64,000 bases of DNA from Calditrichota bacterium (GTDB lineage: Bacteria; Calditrichota; Calditrichia; RBG-13-44-9; J042): contig JAADJD010000010.1 in NCBI GenBank assembly GCA_013150955.1, positions 1 through 64,000 of the forward strand, given 5' to 3'. The notes under the pieces were generated by a model. That model was given only the letters and a program-made list of their open reading frames with translations. It did not search any database and was not told the origin of the DNA. The position numbers were made by a program, and so were the translations under genes. Positions 28,342 through 37,038 of this stretch are shown here, piece by piece (the first letter of the stretch is position 1; the number at the start of each line of letters is the position of its first letter).

Positions 28342-28815
28342 CTACTGCGCACTCTCCGCCATTTCCTGCTGTTCCAGCCAGCGATCAATTGCCTGAATCA
28401 GATGGGATATGGCCCGGATGATGGCTTCCCGGTGCTCGGCGTCGATCTCTTCCAGAATCTCCCCGTGCAGTTCTTCGGAAACGTGCTTGATCTGGTGTAC
28501 CACGTCTTTGCCCTTTTCGGTCAGGCTGACGATGATTCCCCGGCGGTCGTAGGGGGCAATGTCACGCTTCACAATGCCCTTCTTTTCCAGCGAGGTCACG
28601 ATCCGGGTGACCCCTCCCGGGGTAATGTGCAGCCGTTCCGCCAGTGCCTTGACCGCCAGCTGATCATTGCTGAGAAACTGAAGGAGACAGTTAAATTCGG
28701 CAGGTGTAATGTTCATGCGTTTGACAATGACCATGTCCTTTGCGGTACACTTCTGGCGGAGGATAAACACCAGCTCCGCCATTTTCTCTGCCATTTGCTG
28801 ATGATTGGCCTTCAA
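28342..28815 (-). CDS. MarR-family transcriptional regulator
   Basis: A 157-residue winged-helix protein. ITPAEFNCLLQFLSNDQLAVKALAERLHITPGGVTRIVTSLEKKGIVKRDI is the MarR helix-turn-helix, with the wing DRRGIIVSLTEKGKDVV and a C-terminal dimerisation helix. The start is taken as TTG at 28815, with GGGAG eight bases upstream in the transcript; a longer frame reaching 28935 adds 40 unrelated residues, and the next ATG is seven codons in. It is convergent with the secreted propeller gene, one base apart. Target genes cannot be told from the sequence. Confidence 0.87.
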   Translation of the reverse strand: MKANHQQMAEKMAELVFILRQKCTAKDMVIVKRMNITPAEFNCLLQFLSNDQLAVKALAERLHITPGGVTRIVTSLEKKGIVKRDIAPYDRRGIIVSLTEKGKDVVHQIKHVSEELHGEILEEIDAEHREAIIRAISHLIQAIDRWLEQQEMAESAQ

Positions 28816-28981
28816 GGTACACTCTCCCTTCTTTATGCCCTCTACAATTAATATATTTATTTGATAAATATTTCTCAAACTAAAATTAAAATTGATCTCA
28901 AAAGTTGATCCAACCGAAATCATTACAGGTGGCAATATTTTGGATCCTCAGCCGGCCAGTGGGTTGAGGATGTCATCCATG

Positions 28982-29226: not shown

Positions 29227-29649
29227 TTAACCATGTTCATTTTGCAACAAATACTGCTTGACCTCTTCCAGGGTATGCTGCTCGGCCCACTGGCTGAAAT
29301 ATTCCTTCAGGTCGCGCCAGAAAAAATGCAGGGGGCATGGCTTGTCTTCGCTGCATTCTTCCCATCCAAAAACGCAGGTGGAGGGTTCGGTGTCGTAATT
29401 CACCGCTTTGAGCACATCAGAGAAGTAGATCTCTGACAGTGGACGGGCCAGTACAAAGCCCCCGCCGTGGCCTTTCTGGGAGTTTAGCAGTCCGGCCGCG
29501 ACCAGTCGCCGCATGATTTTTGACAGATAGTGCAGGGGAATCCCCGTTTCCTCGGATAAATCCCGTGCCCGTACCGGTTTATCTGGAGGATTCGCTGCCA
29601 GCAAGGCCATTACCCGTAGCGCATACTCCGCCGTTTGCGTGAGTCTCAT
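29227..29649 (-). CDS. Rrf2-family iron-sulfur transcriptional regulator (NsrR/IscR type)
   Basis: A 140-residue Rrf2 protein. The helix-turn-helix is RARDLSEETGIPLHYLSKIMRRLVAAGLL, and the wing motif KGHGGGFVLARPL is classic for the family. Three cysteines, C92-X6-C99-X5-C105 (TCVFGWEEC, DKPC), sit where NsrR and IscR bind a [2Fe-2S] or [4Fe-4S] cluster. It is divergent from the heme-copper oxidase cluster with a 277-base gap holding a strong promoter and two 20-bp palindromes. The simplest reading is an NO- or redox-sensing repressor of that cluster. NsrR, IscR and RsrR share this fold and cannot be told apart by sequence alone. ATG at 29649, GGGAGG upstream. Confidence 0.9.
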   Translation of the reverse strand: MRLTQTAEYALRVMALLAANPPDKPVRARDLSEETGIPLHYLSKIMRRLVAAGLLNSQKGHGGGFVLARPLSEIYFSDVLKAVNYDTEPSTCVFGWEECSEDKPCPLHFFWRDLKEYFSQWAEQHTLEEVKQYLLQNEHG

Positions 29650-29840
29650 GAAACGCCTCCCTGTTCATCACCAGTCCCGAACGTTACGTTATTTTTTCCC
29701 TGGAAGTTCCCCTGAGATAATTTAGCCTTTTTCCGAAGGATTATCCAGCGATTGTTCAAAATATTTTAAAAATATGGGCGAATGTGAAATGTTTACAGGC
29801 ATTGAATATTGCTCTTGAACAATTTTTCACAAAAATGTTT

Positions 29841-29893
29841 AATGGACTTGACAGTCTATTGATTTTTCCTTAAATTGGACATCGAGGTCTATT
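29841..29893 (+). promoter_or_regulatory. Paired 20-bp palindromic operators, candidate Rrf2 binding sites
   Basis: Site 1 (29841-29860) reads AATGGAC-N6-GTCTATT and site 2 (29874-29893) reads ATTGGAC-N6-GTCTATT. Site 1 is a perfect dyad apart from the spacer and the fourth and seventeenth bases. The two sites are in the same orientation with centres 33 bp apart, about three helical turns. Site 1 overlaps the -35 and site 2 begins within the -10 and extends over the expected start point, as for a repressor. Confidence 0.7.
29848..29876 (+). promoter_or_regulatory. Sigma-70-type promoter of the respiratory cluster
   Basis: TTGACA at 29848-29853, then exactly 17 bases, then TAAATT at 29871-29876. 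Transcription would start near 29883, about 44 bases before the ATG of the first oxidase gene. The -35 is the spacer of operator site 1. Confidence 0.72.
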
Positions 29894-29926: not shown

Positions 29927-31333
29927 ATGGAGCCCTACAAAACCTCCCGGCAGTGGTTGGGCATCGGCATTGGCGCGTTAATGCTGGCCGGTTTTCTTTC
30001 CTTTGTCCTGGTGATTGGAAGGGCTCCGCTGATTCATCATCTCATTACCGATCCCCAATTTGCCCGCCGTTGTCTGGTCATCCACGTCAATCTGGCCTTG
30101 TTTGTGTGGTTATCGGCTGTTCTGGCCAGTTTGTACACGCTGCTTCCCGGATATCGATCGAAACGCGGGGGAACGCTGGAGCCTCCGCATCTGGCCATGA
30201 TGGGAATCGCCCTGTTTATTATTAGCGGAATGTTTCCGGCGGCTGAACCCATCATGTCCAATTATATTCCGGTGCTGGATCATCCACTCTTTTTTATCGG
30301 AATGGGACTGGTTTTGCTGGCTCTGGTGGTTACTTACCTGCAGGCGCATCCATTTCGTGTTCGCGCCATTGTCGATAGAGATCATCCCATTTTACCGGTA
30401 TCCGTGCAACACGGACTGCGGTGGACGGCCATTGCCTTTCTGCTGGCCGTCATGACCCTGATCATTACCTGGTGGCGATTGTCCAATCAACTGGATGCCG
30501 CTTTTTATTACGATTACCTGTTCTGGGGGGCGGGGCATGTCCTGCAATCGGTGAACGTCATGGGCATGGTCAACGTCTGGCTCATTTTATTTTCTCGCCT
30601 GCCCGGTCGTCCCTGGCTGTCGCTTCGCCTGACCAATAGTTTATTTGCCCTGTTGTGGCTGCCGTTGTTGTATGCTCCCTACATTGCCTATCACGCCCCC
30701 AACACCGGGTTTTATTATTCCCAGTTTACCCGCCTGATGCAATTTGGCATTTTCCCCGGTGTGCTGGGGTTTCTTTTCGTCATGGGGTATGCGTATTTTC
30801 GCCGGGTATCGGCAGCGGATCGCCGACTGTTCTGGCAGCAAACCCCGGCGCTGGGCTTTCTGGCCAGCATCACCTTAATTCTTACCGGATTTCTTCTGGG
30901 CGCTTTCATTCGGACGTCGAATACGCTGGTGCCCGCCCACTATCACGCCGCCATCGGTTCCATCACGGTGATCTATATGGTGATGGTTTATCAGCTATTA
31001 CCGTTTTTTGGGTTTCCGGTACTTTCCCGGTTGTTGCAGCGAATGGCCAGCTGGCAGCCGGTGGTTTTCGGGTTTGGGCAGACCATCTTTGCCGTGGGGT
31101 TTGCCATGGCCGGACTCACCCGCAAGGTTTACGGCGCCGAACAGCAAATCCACACCCTGAAAGAATATGTGGGCATGGGGTTGATGGGGCTGGGTGGGCT
31201 GATGGCCATTGCCGGGGGAATTCTATTTATCTGGATTGTTACCACAGCCGTTTCGCCAGCAGTTCCTTTATTCATCATAAAAAAAAGGAGGGCATTATGG
31301 AAGGCAATCAAAAGCATCCCCTTCAGAAGTTGA
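29927..31333 (+). CDS. Divergent heme-copper oxidase subunit I paralogue
   Basis: A 468-residue protein with about 12 membrane helices that aligns by eye with the subunit I encoded downstream. The low-spin heme histidine in CLVIHVNLALFVW and both helix-X heme histidines in VPAHYHAAIGS are kept. The first copper-site His is present in WGAGHVLQSVNV. In helix VII the usual HH pair becomes YH (APYIAYHAPNTG), so one expected copper ligand is tyrosine. The cross-linking Tyr position in helix VI is Ser. It could be a second catalytic subunit with an unusual binuclear site, or a heme-bearing structural subunit. ATG at 29927 is 44 bases after the predicted transcription start. The 3' end overlaps the next small gene. 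Confidence 0.8.
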   Translation: MEPYKTSRQWLGIGIGALMLAGFLSFVLVIGRAPLIHHLITDPQFARRCLVIHVNLALFVWLSAVLASLYTLLPGYRSKRGGTLEPPHLAMMGIALFIISGMFPAAEPIMSNYIPVLDHPLFFIGMGLVLLALVVTYLQAHPFRVRAIVDRDHPILPVSVQHGLRWTAIAFLLAVMTLIITWWRLSNQLDAAFYYDYLFWGAGHVLQSVNVMGMVNVWLILFSRLPGRPWLSLRLTNSLFALLWLPLLYAPYIAYHAPNTGFYYSQFTRLMQFGIFPGVLGFLFVMGYAYFRRVSAADRRLFWQQTPALGFLASITLILTGFLLGAFIRTSNTLVPAHYHAAIGSITVIYMVMVYQLLPFFGFPVLSRLLQRMASWQPVVFGFGQTIFAVGFAMAGLTRKVYGAEQQIHTLKEYVGMGLMGLGGLMAIAGGILFIWIVTTAVSPAVPLFIIKKRRALWKAIKSIPFRS

Positions 31334-31443
31334 TGGACAATCCCTGGTTACTTCTGGCGTTAGGTTTGCTCATCCCCATTTTGTCGTACACCGCATGGGG
31401 GTGGTATCAGATTGTCAACATGGCGAAAGCACTGTTACCATAA
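31297..31443 (+). CDS. 48-residue single-helix membrane peptide, putative oxidase small subunit
   Basis: A small reading frame starting ATG at 31297, preceded by AAAAAAAGGAGGGCATT, and overlapping the end of the previous gene by 37 bases in another frame. It encodes a short basic N-terminus, then one hydrophobic helix (WLLLALGLLIPILSYTAWGWY), then a short tail. Heme-copper oxidases of the B family carry such one-helix subunits (subunit IIa of ba3). Position between two oxidase genes, good ribosome-binding site and clean transmembrane pattern support it; no sequence motif proves the family. Confidence 0.75.
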   Translation: MEGNQKHPLQKLMDNPWLLLALGLLIPILSYTAWGWYQIVNMAKALLP

Positions 31444-31461: not shown

Positions 31462-31986
31462 ATGAGCATTAAAGTACCGGAATCCGATTGGTTTAAGCCC
31501 CCTGCAGGAAGCGAGCGGCTGTGGGTAGGGGTGGCGCTGGTCTGGTGTATGATCATGTTCCTGGCCATGCCCTACTGGCATTTTAAGGGAAAACAAAACG
31601 CGACCGGAGAATCGTATGCGGTGACGCCGGCAGAGTTTATGGAACGGGTCACCCGGTTTGTGGAGACCAACAAGGTGGGAGAAGAAAATGGCATTCCCAT
31701 TGTGGAGCCCTCTCCCGGTGGCGATGCATACCTGGTGGGTCAGATGTGGCGCTGGTATCCCATTCTGAAGTTAAAAGAAGGCCAGACGTATCGCCTGCAC
31801 ATCTCTTCGGTGGATTTGCAGCATGGGTTTTCGGTGTTGCCCATTAACATCAACTTTCAGGCGCTTCCGGGTTACGATCATGTCATTACCCTGACGCCTA
31901 CCAGTAAGGGGGTTTATCAAATCATCTGCAATGAATTTTGTGGCATCGGTCATCATTTAATGACAGGTCGAATCATCGTAGAATAG
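31462..31986 (+). CDS. Heme-copper oxidase subunit II with CuA centre
   Basis: A 174-residue subunit II. One N-terminal transmembrane helix (RLWVGVALVWCMIMFLAMPYW) anchors a periplasmic cupredoxin domain. The CuA ligands are all visible: the His in SSVDLQHGFSVLP and the CX3CX3HX2M-like motif CNEFCGIGHHLM. It receives electrons from a periplasmic donor and passes them to subunit I. The single-helix form matches B-family (ba3) subunit II. AGGAGGACAACT precedes the ATG at 31462. Order CuA subunit, catalytic subunit, SCO recalls the norSY-senC cluster known in Nitrosomonas (from memory). Confidence 0.93.
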   Translation: MSIKVPESDWFKPPAGSERLWVGVALVWCMIMFLAMPYWHFKGKQNATGESYAVTPAEFMERVTRFVETNKVGEENGIPIVEPSPGGDAYLVGQMWRWYPILKLKEGQTYRLHISSVDLQHGFSVLPININFQALPGYDHVITLTPTSKGVYQIICNEFCGIGHHLMTGRIIVE

Positions 31987-31997
31987 GAGAGAATGCC

Positions 31998-33719
31998 ATG
32001 GGTAACTTTTTAGAAGGTCGGTATCGCACCTGTAATACAACCGGGCTGCCGGTATGCCTGGATGCACAGTTTTTCATCCGGGCCCATGCGGTGGCCGCAG
32101 TGGTGTTTTTTCTGATTGGCGCGATTGCGGCTTTGCTGATCGCCCTGACGCGCTGGCAGGCCGTGCATCTGTTGTCTGCCATGTGGTTTTACCGCGTGTT
32201 AACCCTGCATGGCCTGAATATGTTGATTTTCTGGATTATTTCCTTTGAAATTGCCATTCTCTATTTTGCTGGAACCAGTCTGTTAAACACCCGCTTGTTT
32301 TCCCGAAAGGTGGCCTGGGTGGCCTACATTTTGATGGTGGTGGGTGCCCTGATGGTGGACTACATCGTGCTGATCGGAAAGGGCGACGTGTTGATGACTT
32401 CCTACGTGCCTCTGAAGGCGCATCCGCTGTTTTATCTGGGAATCATCCTGTTTGCCGTGGGCACGCTGACGGCGGTGTTCAACTTTTTTGCCACCATCTA
32501 CATTGCCCAGCGGGATAAGACCTACGAAGGATCCATGCCGCTGGTTGCCTTTGGGGCGCTGGCTGCGGCCATCATTGCTGTGCTGACACTGCTGCACGGT
32601 GCCACGGTCATGATCCCCAGCTTTCTGTGGTCGCTGGGATTGATTGAAAACATCGATGCCGGATGGTATCGGCTGGTCTGGTGGGGATTGGGACATCCGT
32701 CGCAGCAGATTAATGTGGCAGCCATGGTGGCGGTCTGGTATTTCCTGGCCACTTTGACCACCGGTGCCAAACCGTTGAACGAGACCGTATGCCGGGTGGC
32801 GTTTGTTTTCTACATTCTGTTCATCAATCTGGCTTCTGCACACCATCTGCTGGTGGATCCAGGCCTGAACGCCTCCTGGAAGATCTGGAACACCTCCTAC
32901 GCCATGTATCTGGCGGTGCTGGCTTCCATGATCCACGGCTTCACCGTGCCAGCATCCATTGAAGTGGCCCAGCGGCTGAAGGGATTTACCCGCGGCATTT
33001 TCAACTGGCTCACGTCCGCACCCTGGAGCGATCCGGGCTTTTCTTCCATGTTCATGTCCATCGTGATTTTCGGATTCATCGGTGGCATTACCGGCGTGAC
33101 CATCGGGACGGAACAGATCAACATCATTGCCCATAATACGCTGCGGGTACCGGGACATTTCCACGCCACGGTCGTGGGGGGTACCACGCTGGCTTTCATG
33201 GGCTTAACCTATTATGTGGTGCCACTGATCTTTCAGCGGGATTTTTATTTTAAGGGACTGGCCCGTATTCAGCCGTACATTTTCGCATCGGGTGTGGTGT
33301 TGTTGTCCATCGGAATGTCCTTTGCCGGTTCCTACGGTGTACCGCGGCGTCACTGGGATGTGAATTTTACCGGTGCACCCTTATCGGCCGGGTTCGATGC
33401 AGCGGCACATTTCATGCTGGGCTTGCTGGGCATTGGCGGAATCCTGGCATTCACCGGGGCGCTGATTTTCATTTTGCTGGTGGTAGCGGCGGTGTTCTTT
33501 GGTAAATCCCTTGCTGGACAACCCTTCAGCGGTTGGCAGCCTGCGGAGAAATTCAAACTGAGCATGGAAATTTTTGCCCGGAAAAAAGACGAAAAATTTG
33601 AAGAAATTGCCCACAAAGTACCTGGCACGGTGGTGCTGGTGTTTGTGTTGCTGGTATCGTTCATGGTGTATTACTTTGCCAACTGGAAAGCCCTGGCCGA
33701 TGTGTGGTACGTGCGTTAA
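31998..33719 (+). CDS. B-family heme-copper subunit I lacking the active-site tyrosine; probable NO reductase
   Basis: A 573-residue catalytic subunit with 12-14 helices. It aligns with Thermus ba3 subunit I: the heme His in TLHGLNMLIFW, copper His in WWGLGHPSQQI, HH in SAHHLLVDPG and heme histidines in VPGHFHATV. The residue four after the first copper-site His, the Tyr that cross-links to it in oxygen reductases, is Gln here (GHPSQQ for GHPIVY). No Tyr sits at the cbb3-type helix VII position either. Loss of both is expected of NO reductase lineages (sNOR/eNOR type), not oxygen reductases. The Rrf2 regulator and CuA subunit support that. The ATG at 31998 has AGGAGAGAATGCC; an upstream in-frame start is rejected. 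Confidence 0.87.
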   Translation: MGNFLEGRYRTCNTTGLPVCLDAQFFIRAHAVAAVVFFLIGAIAALLIALTRWQAVHLLSAMWFYRVLTLHGLNMLIFWIISFEIAILYFAGTSLLNTRLFSRKVAWVAYILMVVGALMVDYIVLIGKGDVLMTSYVPLKAHPLFYLGIILFAVGTLTAVFNFFATIYIAQRDKTYEGSMPLVAFGALAAAIIAVLTLLHGATVMIPSFLWSLGLIENIDAGWYRLVWWGLGHPSQQINVAAMVAVWYFLATLTTGAKPLNETVCRVAFVFYILFINLASAHHLLVDPGLNASWKIWNTSYAMYLAVLASMIHGFTVPASIEVAQRLKGFTRGIFNWLTSAPWSDPGFSSMFMSIVIFGFIGGITGVTIGTEQINIIAHNTLRVPGHFHATVVGGTTLAFMGLTYYVVPLIFQRDFYFKGLARIQPYIFASGVVLLSIGMSFAGSYGVPRRHWDVNFTGAPLSAGFDAAAHFMLGLLGIGGILAFTGALIFILLVVAAVFFGKSLAGQPFSGWQPAEKFKLSMEIFARKKDEKFEEIAHKVPGTVVLVFVLLVSFMVYYFANWKALADVWYVR

Positions 33720-33971: not shown

Positions 33972-34922
33972 ATGGGATTTTATAACCAGTTTCAGAAATT
34001 CATTATTAGCTGGCGTTTTGCGGTGTTAATGCTCTCGGTGCTTTTCTTCTTCACGCTTCTGATGATCCTGGTCATTTTGCTACCGACGGAATCCGGTGCG
34101 CTGGCGGCGTTTGCAGAGGACTTTAAAATCTGGTGTTTCCGCTACGATCCCGCGACCGGCACCATGGAATGGTCCTACGTGGTCATGTTCATGTTGCAGC
34201 CATTGTTGATTGGAACGGTCATTCTGGCGGTCTGGTGGAATCAGTTGCGCCAGGTGTTTCAGATGAATCGCCAGGGATTGTTTCCCTATATTGGGGGCGG
34301 TTTTATGGTGGTTCTGGTAGCGGCGGTGATTTTTGCGGTGGCGTTTCCGGTGGACAGTCAGGCCAGTCAGGAAGAGTTGCCCTTTCCTGCGGAACAGCTG
34401 CGAACGGAGTTTCGGGCACCCGATTTCACGCTAACGGATCATCGTGGCCAGACCATTCGACTTTCCGAACTGCGCGGCAAGGTGGTGTTGGTGACGGCGG
34501 TATATGCCAGTTGTGGACACACCTGCCCGCTGATCTTGCAGCAGGCCAAGCGGGTCTTTGCCCGGTTAACCGAAGCGGAAAAACAGCAACTGAAGGTGCT
34601 GGTGATTTCGCTGGATCCCGAAAACGATTCGCCAGAAATATTGCAGATGCTGGCTACCAATCAACAACTGGATGCACCGTACATCCATTTCCTTACCGGA
34701 GATCCAGAGCCGGTGAATCGGGCGCTGGACAACTATAGCATTTCCCGGCAGAAGGATCCCGAAACCGGGGTGATCAGTCATGCCAATTTGTTTATATTGG
34801 TGGACAAAGCCGGGCGGGTGGCCTATCGGTTTTCCCTGGGTCAGCAACAGGAAAACTGGTTGACCACCGCCCTGAAATTGCTGATTCATGAACCGGTAAA
34901 CACATCGACGTCAACGCTTTAA
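33972..34922 (+). CDS. SCO1/SenC-family protein with N-terminal membrane domain
   Basis: A 316-residue protein. Residues 1-130 hold three hydrophobic helices (FAVLMLSVLFFFTLLMILVILL, VVMFMLQPLLIGTVILAVWW, GGGFMVVLVAAVIFAVAF). A SCO thioredoxin-fold domain follows (about 145-310): FRAPDFTLTDHRGQTIRLSELRGKVVLVTAVYASCGHTCPL. The copper ligands are the CX3C pair (CGHTC, near residue 181) and the His in VISHANLF near 269. SCO proteins load copper into the CuA site of subunit II. Ordinary SCO has a single anchor, so the three-helix extension is unusual and might contact the oxidase or the cytochrome b encoded next. ATG at 33972 has GAGGGGTAGCC. Confidence 0.9.
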   Translation: MGFYNQFQKFIISWRFAVLMLSVLFFFTLLMILVILLPTESGALAAFAEDFKIWCFRYDPATGTMEWSYVVMFMLQPLLIGTVILAVWWNQLRQVFQMNRQGLFPYIGGGFMVVLVAAVIFAVAFPVDSQASQEELPFPAEQLRTEFRAPDFTLTDHRGQTIRLSELRGKVVLVTAVYASCGHTCPLILQQAKRVFARLTEAEKQQLKVLVISLDPENDSPEILQMLATNQQLDAPYIHFLTGDPEPVNRALDNYSISRQKDPETGVISHANLFILVDKAGRVAYRFSLGQQQENWLTTALKLLIHEPVNTSTSTL

Positions 34923-34935
34923 ACAGGAAGGCCCA

Positions 34936-37038
34936 ATGGAAACTCCAACGCTGTCGCGTGCGAAAAGGCGTGCCCCCGTTCAGTTACCGTTTCGGTCGGT
35001 TGGTGATGCGCGCTCGCATCCGCAGCTGGTTGGCGAACGGTTACTGCGCCAATGGAATACCCTGTTTATTCGATTGAATCAGTGGGTTAAGACGGCACTG
35101 CCCGATACGTTAAACCCCTTTGCCCAGATGGGGGCGGTGGCAAACACCACGTTTGTGATCGCTCTGATTTCCGGCATTCTGCTTCTGTTCTGGTATAGTC
35201 CCAGCATTCATTACGCATACGACTCGCTGGAGTCCATGCGCACCTCTTCCTTTCTGGGACAGTTGATGCGCTCCCTGCACCGTTACAGTTCCGATGCCTG
35301 CATCCTGTTCATGGTATTACATGCCTTTCAGGTGCTTTTTGCCGGGAAGTTTAGTGGGCCGCGCTGGCTGGCCTGGGTTTCGGGCGTGGTGCTGGCAGGA
35401 CTGCTCTGGGTGGATGGCTGGCTGGGGTACTGGCTGGTCTGGGATCAGCGTGCCCAGCTGGTGGCACTGGGTTCCGCCCGGATGCTGGATGTGCTGCCCT
35501 TTTTTGCCGATCCTCTTTCCCGATCTTTTTTAACCAATGAAAGTGTCAACTCCCTGCTCTTCTTCCTGGTCTTTTTTATGCACATGCTGATTCCTCTGGG
35601 CATCGGGATTGCTCTGTGGATTCACATCATGCGATTAAACCGTTCGGTATTTTTTACCCGGGCGAAATTAACCTGGGCCATTTTGATTTCGCTAACAATC
35701 TTATCGGTGATTTATCCCGCCACTTCGGCACCCCGCGCCGATATGCTCACCGTTCCCGACAAACTGACCATTGATTGGTTCTACCTGTTTCCGCTCTTTC
35801 TCACCGATCGGCTGGAGGGCGGCATGTTGTGGATGATAACGTTGGTGCTCACCGTTCTGGTTACCGCCGTGCCATGGTTGCTGCAAAGGCGGAAATCCCC
35901 GGTGGCCAGGGTGCTGGAAAGCCGGTGCAATGGATGCACGCAGTGCTACCAGGATTGCCCCTACAATGCCATTACCATGATGCCCCGTGCCGATCGGGAA
36001 GAACCGTACGCGTCGGTGGATCCTGCCCGCTGTGTGGGGTGCGGGATTTGCGTGGGCTCCTGCGATCCCGCAGGTGTGACCTATCCGTTACTGGAACCGC
36101 TGGATATCCGGCAGTGGATCAATCAGGTTCTGGAAGCGTCTTCGCCGGGGCAGACCCCGCCTTATCTGGCCTTTATTTGTGCCGAATCCGCCGGTGCCGA
36201 TCTGCAATTGAATGCAGCCGGAGAAAGTCCCGAATTACCCGGATATCGGATATTGCCGGTTCCCTGTGCCGGGTGGGTACATCCGTTGCTGATCGAACGC
36301 GCGGTACGCAAGGGTGCTGCCGGAGTGCTGATCGTCAGTTGCGATCTGGATCCTTATTGTCGCAAGGGAGTGGAGTGGACAGCCGAACGACTGGATGGAG
36401 AACGCAAGCCCGCCCTGCGAAAAGAAAAAGTAGGGGACACACCGGTGTACCATCTGCGTGTGGATCGCACCGAAAAGGATGCGTTTTTAAAAGCCGCACG
36501 GCAGTTCCAGCAGGAGGGCCGCATACCACAGCGATCTCCACGTAGCCGATTCTATCGCTGGACGGTGGCGGCGGTACTGGTGTTGGGACTGAGCCTGGCC
36601 ACGGTTGTTCCCAGCGATGCCTGGTATCCCACCGTTGTACCGGAACATCCGGAGGTGGTGGTGTCCTTCAAACATCCCGGTCAGCTGGTGGAGCAATCGG
36701 CGGCCACCCAGAAAAGCAATGACGAATTGTTACCCCACATGCGGGGTGCGGCATCCATCCAGCGGGTTCGGGTGCCTGTTAGAATGCGAATTTTTGTGGA
36801 TGGGAAGGAAGTGCTGAACAAATCCTATCGTCCCGGTGGCCTGTTTAATGATGGCACCAGCCTGGCCATTGAAAAGCTACCCATTCCCGAAGGGCGTCAT
36901 CGGGTGCGCATTGAAATTGGGGATAGCCCCGATCCCGACGAATGGAACTATGTGGATGAACGGGAAGTGGTGTTGGACAGCAATACCCGGCGCCATGTGG
37001 TGATGTTCGATAGGGTTAGTGGATTCAGGTGGTATTAA
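34936..37038 (+). CDS. Cytochrome b - 2[4Fe-4S] ferredoxin - MvhD fusion protein
   Basis: A 700-residue fusion. Residues about 50-325 form a bc1-type cytochrome b. Both heme pairs are HX13H (LHRYSSDACILFMVLH; FMHMLIPLGIGIALWIH). The Qo-site PEWY counterpart is IDWFY. Residues about 330-385 form a dicluster ferredoxin (CNGCTQCYQDCP, CVGCGICVGSCDP). Residues about 405-520 match the MvhD/FlpD hydrogenase delta domain (FICAESAGADLQ, PVPCAGWVHPLLIERAVRKGAAGVLIVSCD). A further helix (VAAVLVLGLSLATVV) and a beta-rich C-terminal domain of about 140 residues follow. It would join a quinone-reactive cytochrome b to a cytosolic electron-entry site. It sits 13 bases after the SCO gene. Confidence 0.88.
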   Translation: METPTLSRAKRRAPVQLPFRSVGDARSHPQLVGERLLRQWNTLFIRLNQWVKTALPDTLNPFAQMGAVANTTFVIALISGILLLFWYSPSIHYAYDSLESMRTSSFLGQLMRSLHRYSSDACILFMVLHAFQVLFAGKFSGPRWLAWVSGVVLAGLLWVDGWLGYWLVWDQRAQLVALGSARMLDVLPFFADPLSRSFLTNESVNSLLFFLVFFMHMLIPLGIGIALWIHIMRLNRSVFFTRAKLTWAILISLTILSVIYPATSAPRADMLTVPDKLTIDWFYLFPLFLTDRLEGGMLWMITLVLTVLVTAVPWLLQRRKSPVARVLESRCNGCTQCYQDCPYNAITMMPRADREEPYASVDPARCVGCGICVGSCDPAGVTYPLLEPLDIRQWINQVLEASSPGQTPPYLAFICAESAGADLQLNAAGESPELPGYRILPVPCAGWVHPLLIERAVRKGAAGVLIVSCDLDPYCRKGVEWTAERLDGERKPALRKEKVGDTPVYHLRVDRTEKDAFLKAARQFQQEGRIPQRSPRSRFYRWTVAAVLVLGLSLATVVPSDAWYPTVVPEHPEVVVSFKHPGQLVEQSAATQKSNDELLPHMRGAASIQRVRVPVRMRIFVDGKEVLNKSYRPGGLFNDGTSLAIEKLPIPEGRHRVRIEIGDSPDPDEWNYVDEREVVLDSNTRRHVVMFDRVSGFRWY

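Follow-up and report, generated by a model that had tools for sequence, protein, structure and literature searches.

The window analysed here, that is, the entire 64,000-nucleotide stretch of DNA, contains a divergent promoter region between a regulatory gene and a respiratory gene cluster. On the reverse strand, positions 29227 to 29649 encode a 140-residue protein of the Rrf2 family, and the genes of the cluster lie on the forward strand, starting at position 29927. The first of these (29927-31333) encodes a membrane protein of 468 amino acids, a paralogue of haem-copper subunit I in which the haem histidines are kept and the two CuB histidines of helix VII are missing. It has no sequence match in Pfam, NCBIfam or the PDB; among its relatives, the histidines of helices II, VI and X are present in 63 out of 63, and the first histidine of helix VII in 0 of the 63 aligned, in a stretch which, it should be noted, aligns poorly. 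This paralogue accompanies most eNOR-type clusters (relatives in L051-L130), possibly as a second haem subunit. It is followed by a gene for a 48-residue membrane protein with a single helix (KHPLQKLMDNPWLLLALGLLIPILSY; 31297-31443), for which tblastn gives matches at the equivalent place in almost every one of the 80 loci described below, and then by genes for a cupredoxin (CuA) subunit II with the motif CNEFCGIGHHLM (31462-31986; PF00116, with a domain match to TIGR02866), haem-copper subunit I (31998-33719; PF00115, 227 bits, the start being set by orthologs), an SCO1/SenC-type copper assembly protein (33972-34922; PF02630) and, as the last conserved gene, a fusion of cytochrome b, ferredoxin and FlpD (34936-37038; PF00033, PF12838 and PF02662). 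The fusion ends the cluster in most related loci and is a possible electron donor.

What kind of enzyme does this cluster encode? In alignment, subunit I has HPSQQ where ba3 oxidase has HPINY or, in other words, a glutamine replaces the cross-linked tyrosine. A glutamine at this position defines eNOR (PMC8756737), and it is present in 72 out of 72 subunit I homologues, in all of which the six histidines that bind haem and CuB are invariant as well. What is more, the gene for the cupredoxin subunit II lies directly upstream of that for subunit I, as expected of eNOR. In these respects the host cluster is like eNOR, and it differs in adding the CuB-less paralogue of subunit I and the cytochrome b/ferredoxin/FlpD fusion. 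Judging from these features, it is probably a NO-reducing respiratory operon of the eNOR type. As for the rest of NO metabolism, the host genome encodes a clade-II NosZ (882 bits), no hcp was found in it, no nitrite reductase in it scores above the NirK cut-off, and cytochrome d1 is represented by a weak and partial match alone. With such a gene complement, the reduction of NO to N2O and further to N2 is thus plausible in this organism.

The promoter of the cluster carries two 20-bp palindromes, 33 bp apart, exactly where the original prediction had placed them. The first, AATGGAC-TTGACA-GTCTATT (29841-29860, forward strand), contains the -35 element TTGACA as its six-nucleotide spacer (29848-29853) and is followed, 17 bp after this element, by the -10 element TAAATT (29871-29876). 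The second, ATTGGAC-ATCGAG-GTCTATT (29874-29893, forward strand), starts within the -10 element and covers the start point, as predicted from the position of the -10. The palindromy is imperfect: complementary bases are found in 6/7 arm pairs of site 1 and in 5/7 of site 2, or in 7/10 pairs of each full 20-mer. The two copies are, in turn, identical at 13 out of 14 arm bases, a likeness that first-order shuffling of the intergenic stretch equalled in 4 out of 4000 trials and that no second pair in the 64-kb window approaches. Searching the 4.07-Mb host genome by sequence pattern, we found two exact matches to TGGAC-N6-GTCTA and, with at most one mismatch, two matches to AWTRGAC-N6-GTCYAWT, in both cases the two sites at this promoter, which is the only target detected in that genome. 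Chance origin of the pair was considered and rejected. When three mismatches are allowed, the 64-kb window contains 8 matches for 9.7 expected, which is no more than chance would give, so it is the exact matches and their conservation that carry weight. An Rfam search at the promoter gave no match, and no tandem repeat was found. A further imperfect dyad, TTGAACAATTTTTCACAA, is present at positions 29815-29832 of the window, with its centre some 60 bp upstream of the predicted start; it is kept in a genome of the same genus (G001), absent from G003 and G012 (see below), and could be an activator site.

The product of the divergent gene belongs to the Rrf2 family beyond doubt, the domain extending along its full length and scoring 109.5 bits against PF02082 (cut-off 30) and 119.4 bits against TIGR00738 (cut-off 73.3). 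As originally stated, it has three cysteines in the expected region, C92-x6-C99-x5-C105, and in alignment the C-x6-C-x5-C pattern recurs in the Rrf2 orthologs at the cluster loci (a pattern that additionally required a following proline misses five of these). Among the named models of NCBIfam, IscR (TIGR02010) gives the highest score, 81.5 bits with an equivalog cut-off of 207.55; the NsrR model (NF008240) gives 40.4 bits with a cut-off of 182, and the protein likewise stays under the cut-offs of the models for RirA, CymR and the Xanthomonas SUF regulator. Two of its orthologs score 34.5 and 52.7 bits against the NsrR model, again below 182. A profile built from nine orthologs, applied to 491 genomes from two other groups, separates a set of orthologs (171-223 bits) from the paralogs (at most 122 bits), and sites of the present type lie near 6/9 orthologs as opposed to 1/51 paralogs, with some of the nine being loci that are also counted below. 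On these sequence comparisons, we treat the protein as a separate subfamily.

Within the order, three further genomes have the orthologous cluster and, divergent to it, an Rrf2 gene: G001, which is of the same genus, G003, of the same family, and G012, of a different family. Their Rrf2 orthologs are 86%, 79% and about 51-55% identical to the host protein, respectively. The operator pair is retained in all three. Its two sites are 33 bp apart in G001 and in G012, where they read AATGGACTTGATTGTCAATT and ATTGGACAAAATTGTCCATT, and 44 bp apart in G003, i.e. 11 bp further than in the host, with a second site (AGTGGACAACGAAGTCCATT) that is more symmetric. The spacing of 33 bp recurs in L060/L188 (apparently the same locus, met twice), L065, L068 (from the cultured Fodinibius halophilus), L102, L189 and L190, while L052 and L087 have 32 bp and L067 has 31 bp. 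In L066 the spacing is 43 bp which, like the 44 bp of G003, is approximately one helical turn longer. Spacings of 49-50 bp, off the helical phase and with weaker matches, occur in L076, L081 and L191 and count against the paired-operator reading favoured below. The sites are also tied to the promoter elements. In particular, TTG stands at a constant position in the spacer of the first site in all of the 18 promoters examined, and TANNNT follows at a spacing of 17 bp in 8/18, with any other spacing seen in at most 2. It is the -10 count that is the independent part of this result, because the 18 promoters were picked with TTG in view. Attachment to the -35 and to the start point would alone be enough to set the 33 bp; the cases with 43-44 bp, longer by a single turn, suggest an additional role for rotational phase.

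Are the palindromes linked to this particular regulator? To address this question, subunit I homologues were gathered from 84,980 species genomes, giving 80 loci, 72 of which have enough upstream sequence. Counting as a site any match at 12 or more of the 14 arm positions within 400 bp upstream of the cluster, and as an Rrf2 ortholog any protein with at least 44% identity, we found a site in 16 of 23 loci with the ortholog and in 1 of 49 without it (Fisher P = 9e-10). This single exception is L052, whose contig begins 24 bases before its first site, which is why its neighbouring gene is not seen; several of the 7/23 ortholog-bearing loci that show no clear site have weak variants of it. It should be noted that the loci are not phylogenetically independent, the ortholog-negative ones being mostly from Verrucomicrobiota. 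This bias is partly answered by the loci titled Myxococcota, Deltaproteobacteria or Proteobacteria, where the counts are 10/15 and 0/6, respectively (P = 0.012). The consensus was chosen after viewing the sites of the host's order, and two of the 23, namely G001 (L064) and G003 (L051), belong to it; the choice was made independently of all other loci. A position-weight matrix, partly built from the test loci, was used solely for describing pairs.

Several controls bear on the same question. The true half-site reaches 13/14 in 15 of 25 regions, as compared with at most 1/25 for any of 150 permuted half-sites, and replacing the N6 by spacers of 3, 4, 5, 7 or 8 gives 0 regions among the related loci. 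The loci, 1.33 Mb in total, contain 19 strong sites, of which 18 lie upstream of the cluster and 1 elsewhere, and in three large genomes (G061, G063 and G064) the genome-wide matches are at the cluster only. In L066, L069, L084 and L085 the Rrf2 gene is located beyond the opposite end of the cluster, and the site is still upstream of the latter. Given the co-occurrence together with the permutation and spacing controls, the association of the palindromes with the divergent Rrf2 protein is therefore strong at the level of sequence. The search upstream of orthologous clusters, which the original prediction had proposed as its own check, thus found the palindrome present, and the call of a candidate operator for the divergent regulator appears to be right and better supported than had been claimed. 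The confinement to one phylum was too narrow, as loci bearing the titles Balneolaceae, Fodinibius, Bacteroidetes and Myxococcales/Deltaproteobacteria have such sites as well. Upstream of the cluster in L071 and L074, with no Rrf2 ortholog nearby, stand the related palindromes AACAGATCTCTAGATCCATT and AAAAGATCTCTAGATCTATT; possibly, they belong to the same regulator, encoded elsewhere.

Since the palindromes accompany one Rrf2-type gene in several phyla, they are very likely the binding sites of its product, a protein that would hold the operon off until a signal arrives, and this signal is probably nitric oxide. In mechanistic terms, one Rrf2 dimer on site 1 would occupy the -35 element itself and a second one on site 2 would cover the start point; as 33 bp is approximately three helical turns, the two would sit on one face of the DNA and might bind together. 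Polymerase would thereby be blocked and the eNOR-type NO reductase cluster shut off. The three cysteines would hold an Fe-S cluster, damage to which by NO would probably make the protein release the DNA. We infer NO sensing from the glutamine of eNOR in 72/72 homologues and from a site found in one genome before a hemerythrin gene. On the other side, the lack of hcp and of a nitrite reductase above the NirK cut-off in the host genome counts against this reading. Altogether, we put the probability that the divergent Rrf2 protein uses the palindromes as paired operators, and shuts the eNOR-type cluster until NO damages its Fe-S cluster, at about 0.72. The broader proposal, namely that an undescribed Rrf2 subfamily is a dedicated NO-responsive repressor of eNOR in several phyla, with a fixed promoter design (one operator centred on the -35 and one at the start point, whole turns apart), we also favour, with somewhat less confidence.

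How far does the resemblance to known Rrf2 regulators go? Like NsrR, the protein studied here has the Rrf2 fold, three clustered cysteines, a palindromic operator over the promoter and a target linked to NO removal, and a NO response of the regulator is plausible given the eNOR-type enzyme. The label "NsrR-like" of the original prediction holds by analogy only: the score against the NsrR model is far below its cut-off, the NsrR consensus gATGyAT-N5-ATrCATc (PMC1274295) has another half-site and an odd dyad, whereas the present AATRGAC-N6-GTCYATT has an even one, and NsrR has a regulon, as opposed to the one dedicated target in the host genome. The case of RsrR from Streptomyces venezuelae warns against taking likeness to NsrR, in an Rrf2 protein, for NO sensing. 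Namely, RsrR was annotated as NsrR and turned out to sense redox state, not NO, through a [2Fe-2S] cluster (PMC5015018). It resembles the present system in its Rrf2 family membership, in having two operators between divergent genes and in its proposed block of polymerase, and differs from it in its 11-3-11 repeats, 1 bp apart, and in its hundreds of sites (PMC5015018). One can accordingly imagine the same regulator and operators responding to redox state, oxygen or Fe-S supply, as with RsrR or IscR, and the fact that IscR outscores NsrR as nearest named model, both far under cut-off, as well as the lack of hcp in the host genome, would agree with this. However, the one conserved target carries the active-site glutamine of eNOR, and a hemerythrin target is added in one genome (G065); we consider a signal other than NO unlikely, if still the most serious alternative. 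IscR itself also differs from the present system in its target, Fe-S assembly. Whatever the signal, the protein could also activate from these sites, or both activate and repress, and both roles have been proposed for RsrR (PMC5015018). With the -35 inside operator 1 and the predicted start inside operator 2, as in the well-kept examples, one would nevertheless expect a block of polymerase, and a consensus -35 needs little help; we regard this option as improbable. It is this geometry, and it alone, that speaks for the repressor role originally assigned to the protein.

The remaining alternatives concern the identity of the protein that binds. A NO regulator of the Crp/Fnr family, such as HcpR or DNR, might occupy the sites and leave the Rrf2 gene a mere bystander. 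These regulators also have NO-related palindromes, the HcpR site TTGAC-N4-GTCAA (PMC1274295) is similar to the GAC...GTC core, and the host genome encodes four Crp-type proteins. That said, they are of another protein family, both half-site and dyad spacing are unlike (the window sites have AATGGAC and ATTGGAC arms around N6, in place of TTGAC-N4-GTCAA or TTGAT-N4-ATCAA), and the site follows the Rrf2 ortholog in cis, also in those loci where the two stand at opposite ends of the cluster. Crp/Fnr binding is thus highly improbable and was rejected, as was the gene for a MarR-type regulator at 28342-28935 (reverse strand). The latter encodes a DNA-binding protein and adjoins the Rrf2 gene; it is, however, not beside the cluster in G003, where the flank is visible (the G001 contig ends short of this position), and the chance that its product is the cognate regulator is in our view close to nil. 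Paired operators of the Rrf2 protein, relieved by NO, remain the reading we prefer.

If correct, this reading has several consequences. Reductases of the eNOR type are widespread, and we know of no described regulator for them; neither a published eNOR regulator nor a link between eNOR and Rrf2 was found in the literature searched, outside of which most subscription papers fall. A regulator together with its operator and a fixed promoter layout would allow a concrete test in phyla that are for the most part uncultured, and the Rrf2 family would gain a distinct DNA specificity. Moreover, eNOR-type reductases are often mislabelled as oxygen-reducing oxidases (PMC8756737), and an Rrf2 ortholog accompanied by AWTRGAC-N6-GTCYAWT would be a sequence tag that helps to separate NO reductase clusters from oxidases in genomes.

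Beyond the cluster, few further targets come into question. The clade-II nosZ of the host (C61 46748-49337, L237), like that of G001 (C14, L238), is immediately preceded by another Rrf2 paralog, with no copy of the motif, and a distinct Rrf2 protein may control N2O reduction. The host nosZ was considered as a second target and, having its own Rrf2 paralog upstream and no matching site, was rejected. The additional one-mismatch matches examined in G003 and G001 (L133 and L135), as well as one in G065 (L146), are inside coding sequence. The hemerythrin case mentioned above is a further site in G065, AATAGATAGCATGGTCTATT, which lies before a hemerythrin-domain gene (L156, C66 1501-2602) that is followed by an Rrf2 paralog with the same C-x6-C-x5-C. 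Finally, in G047, which is outside the phylum by its kinship label and has no clear site upstream of its oxidase cluster, a perfect 20-bp site (L019 2106-2125) is flanked by genes for a protoporphyrinogen oxidase and for a radical SAM protein related to haem b synthase; the Rrf2 ortholog is 1.2 kb away from this site.
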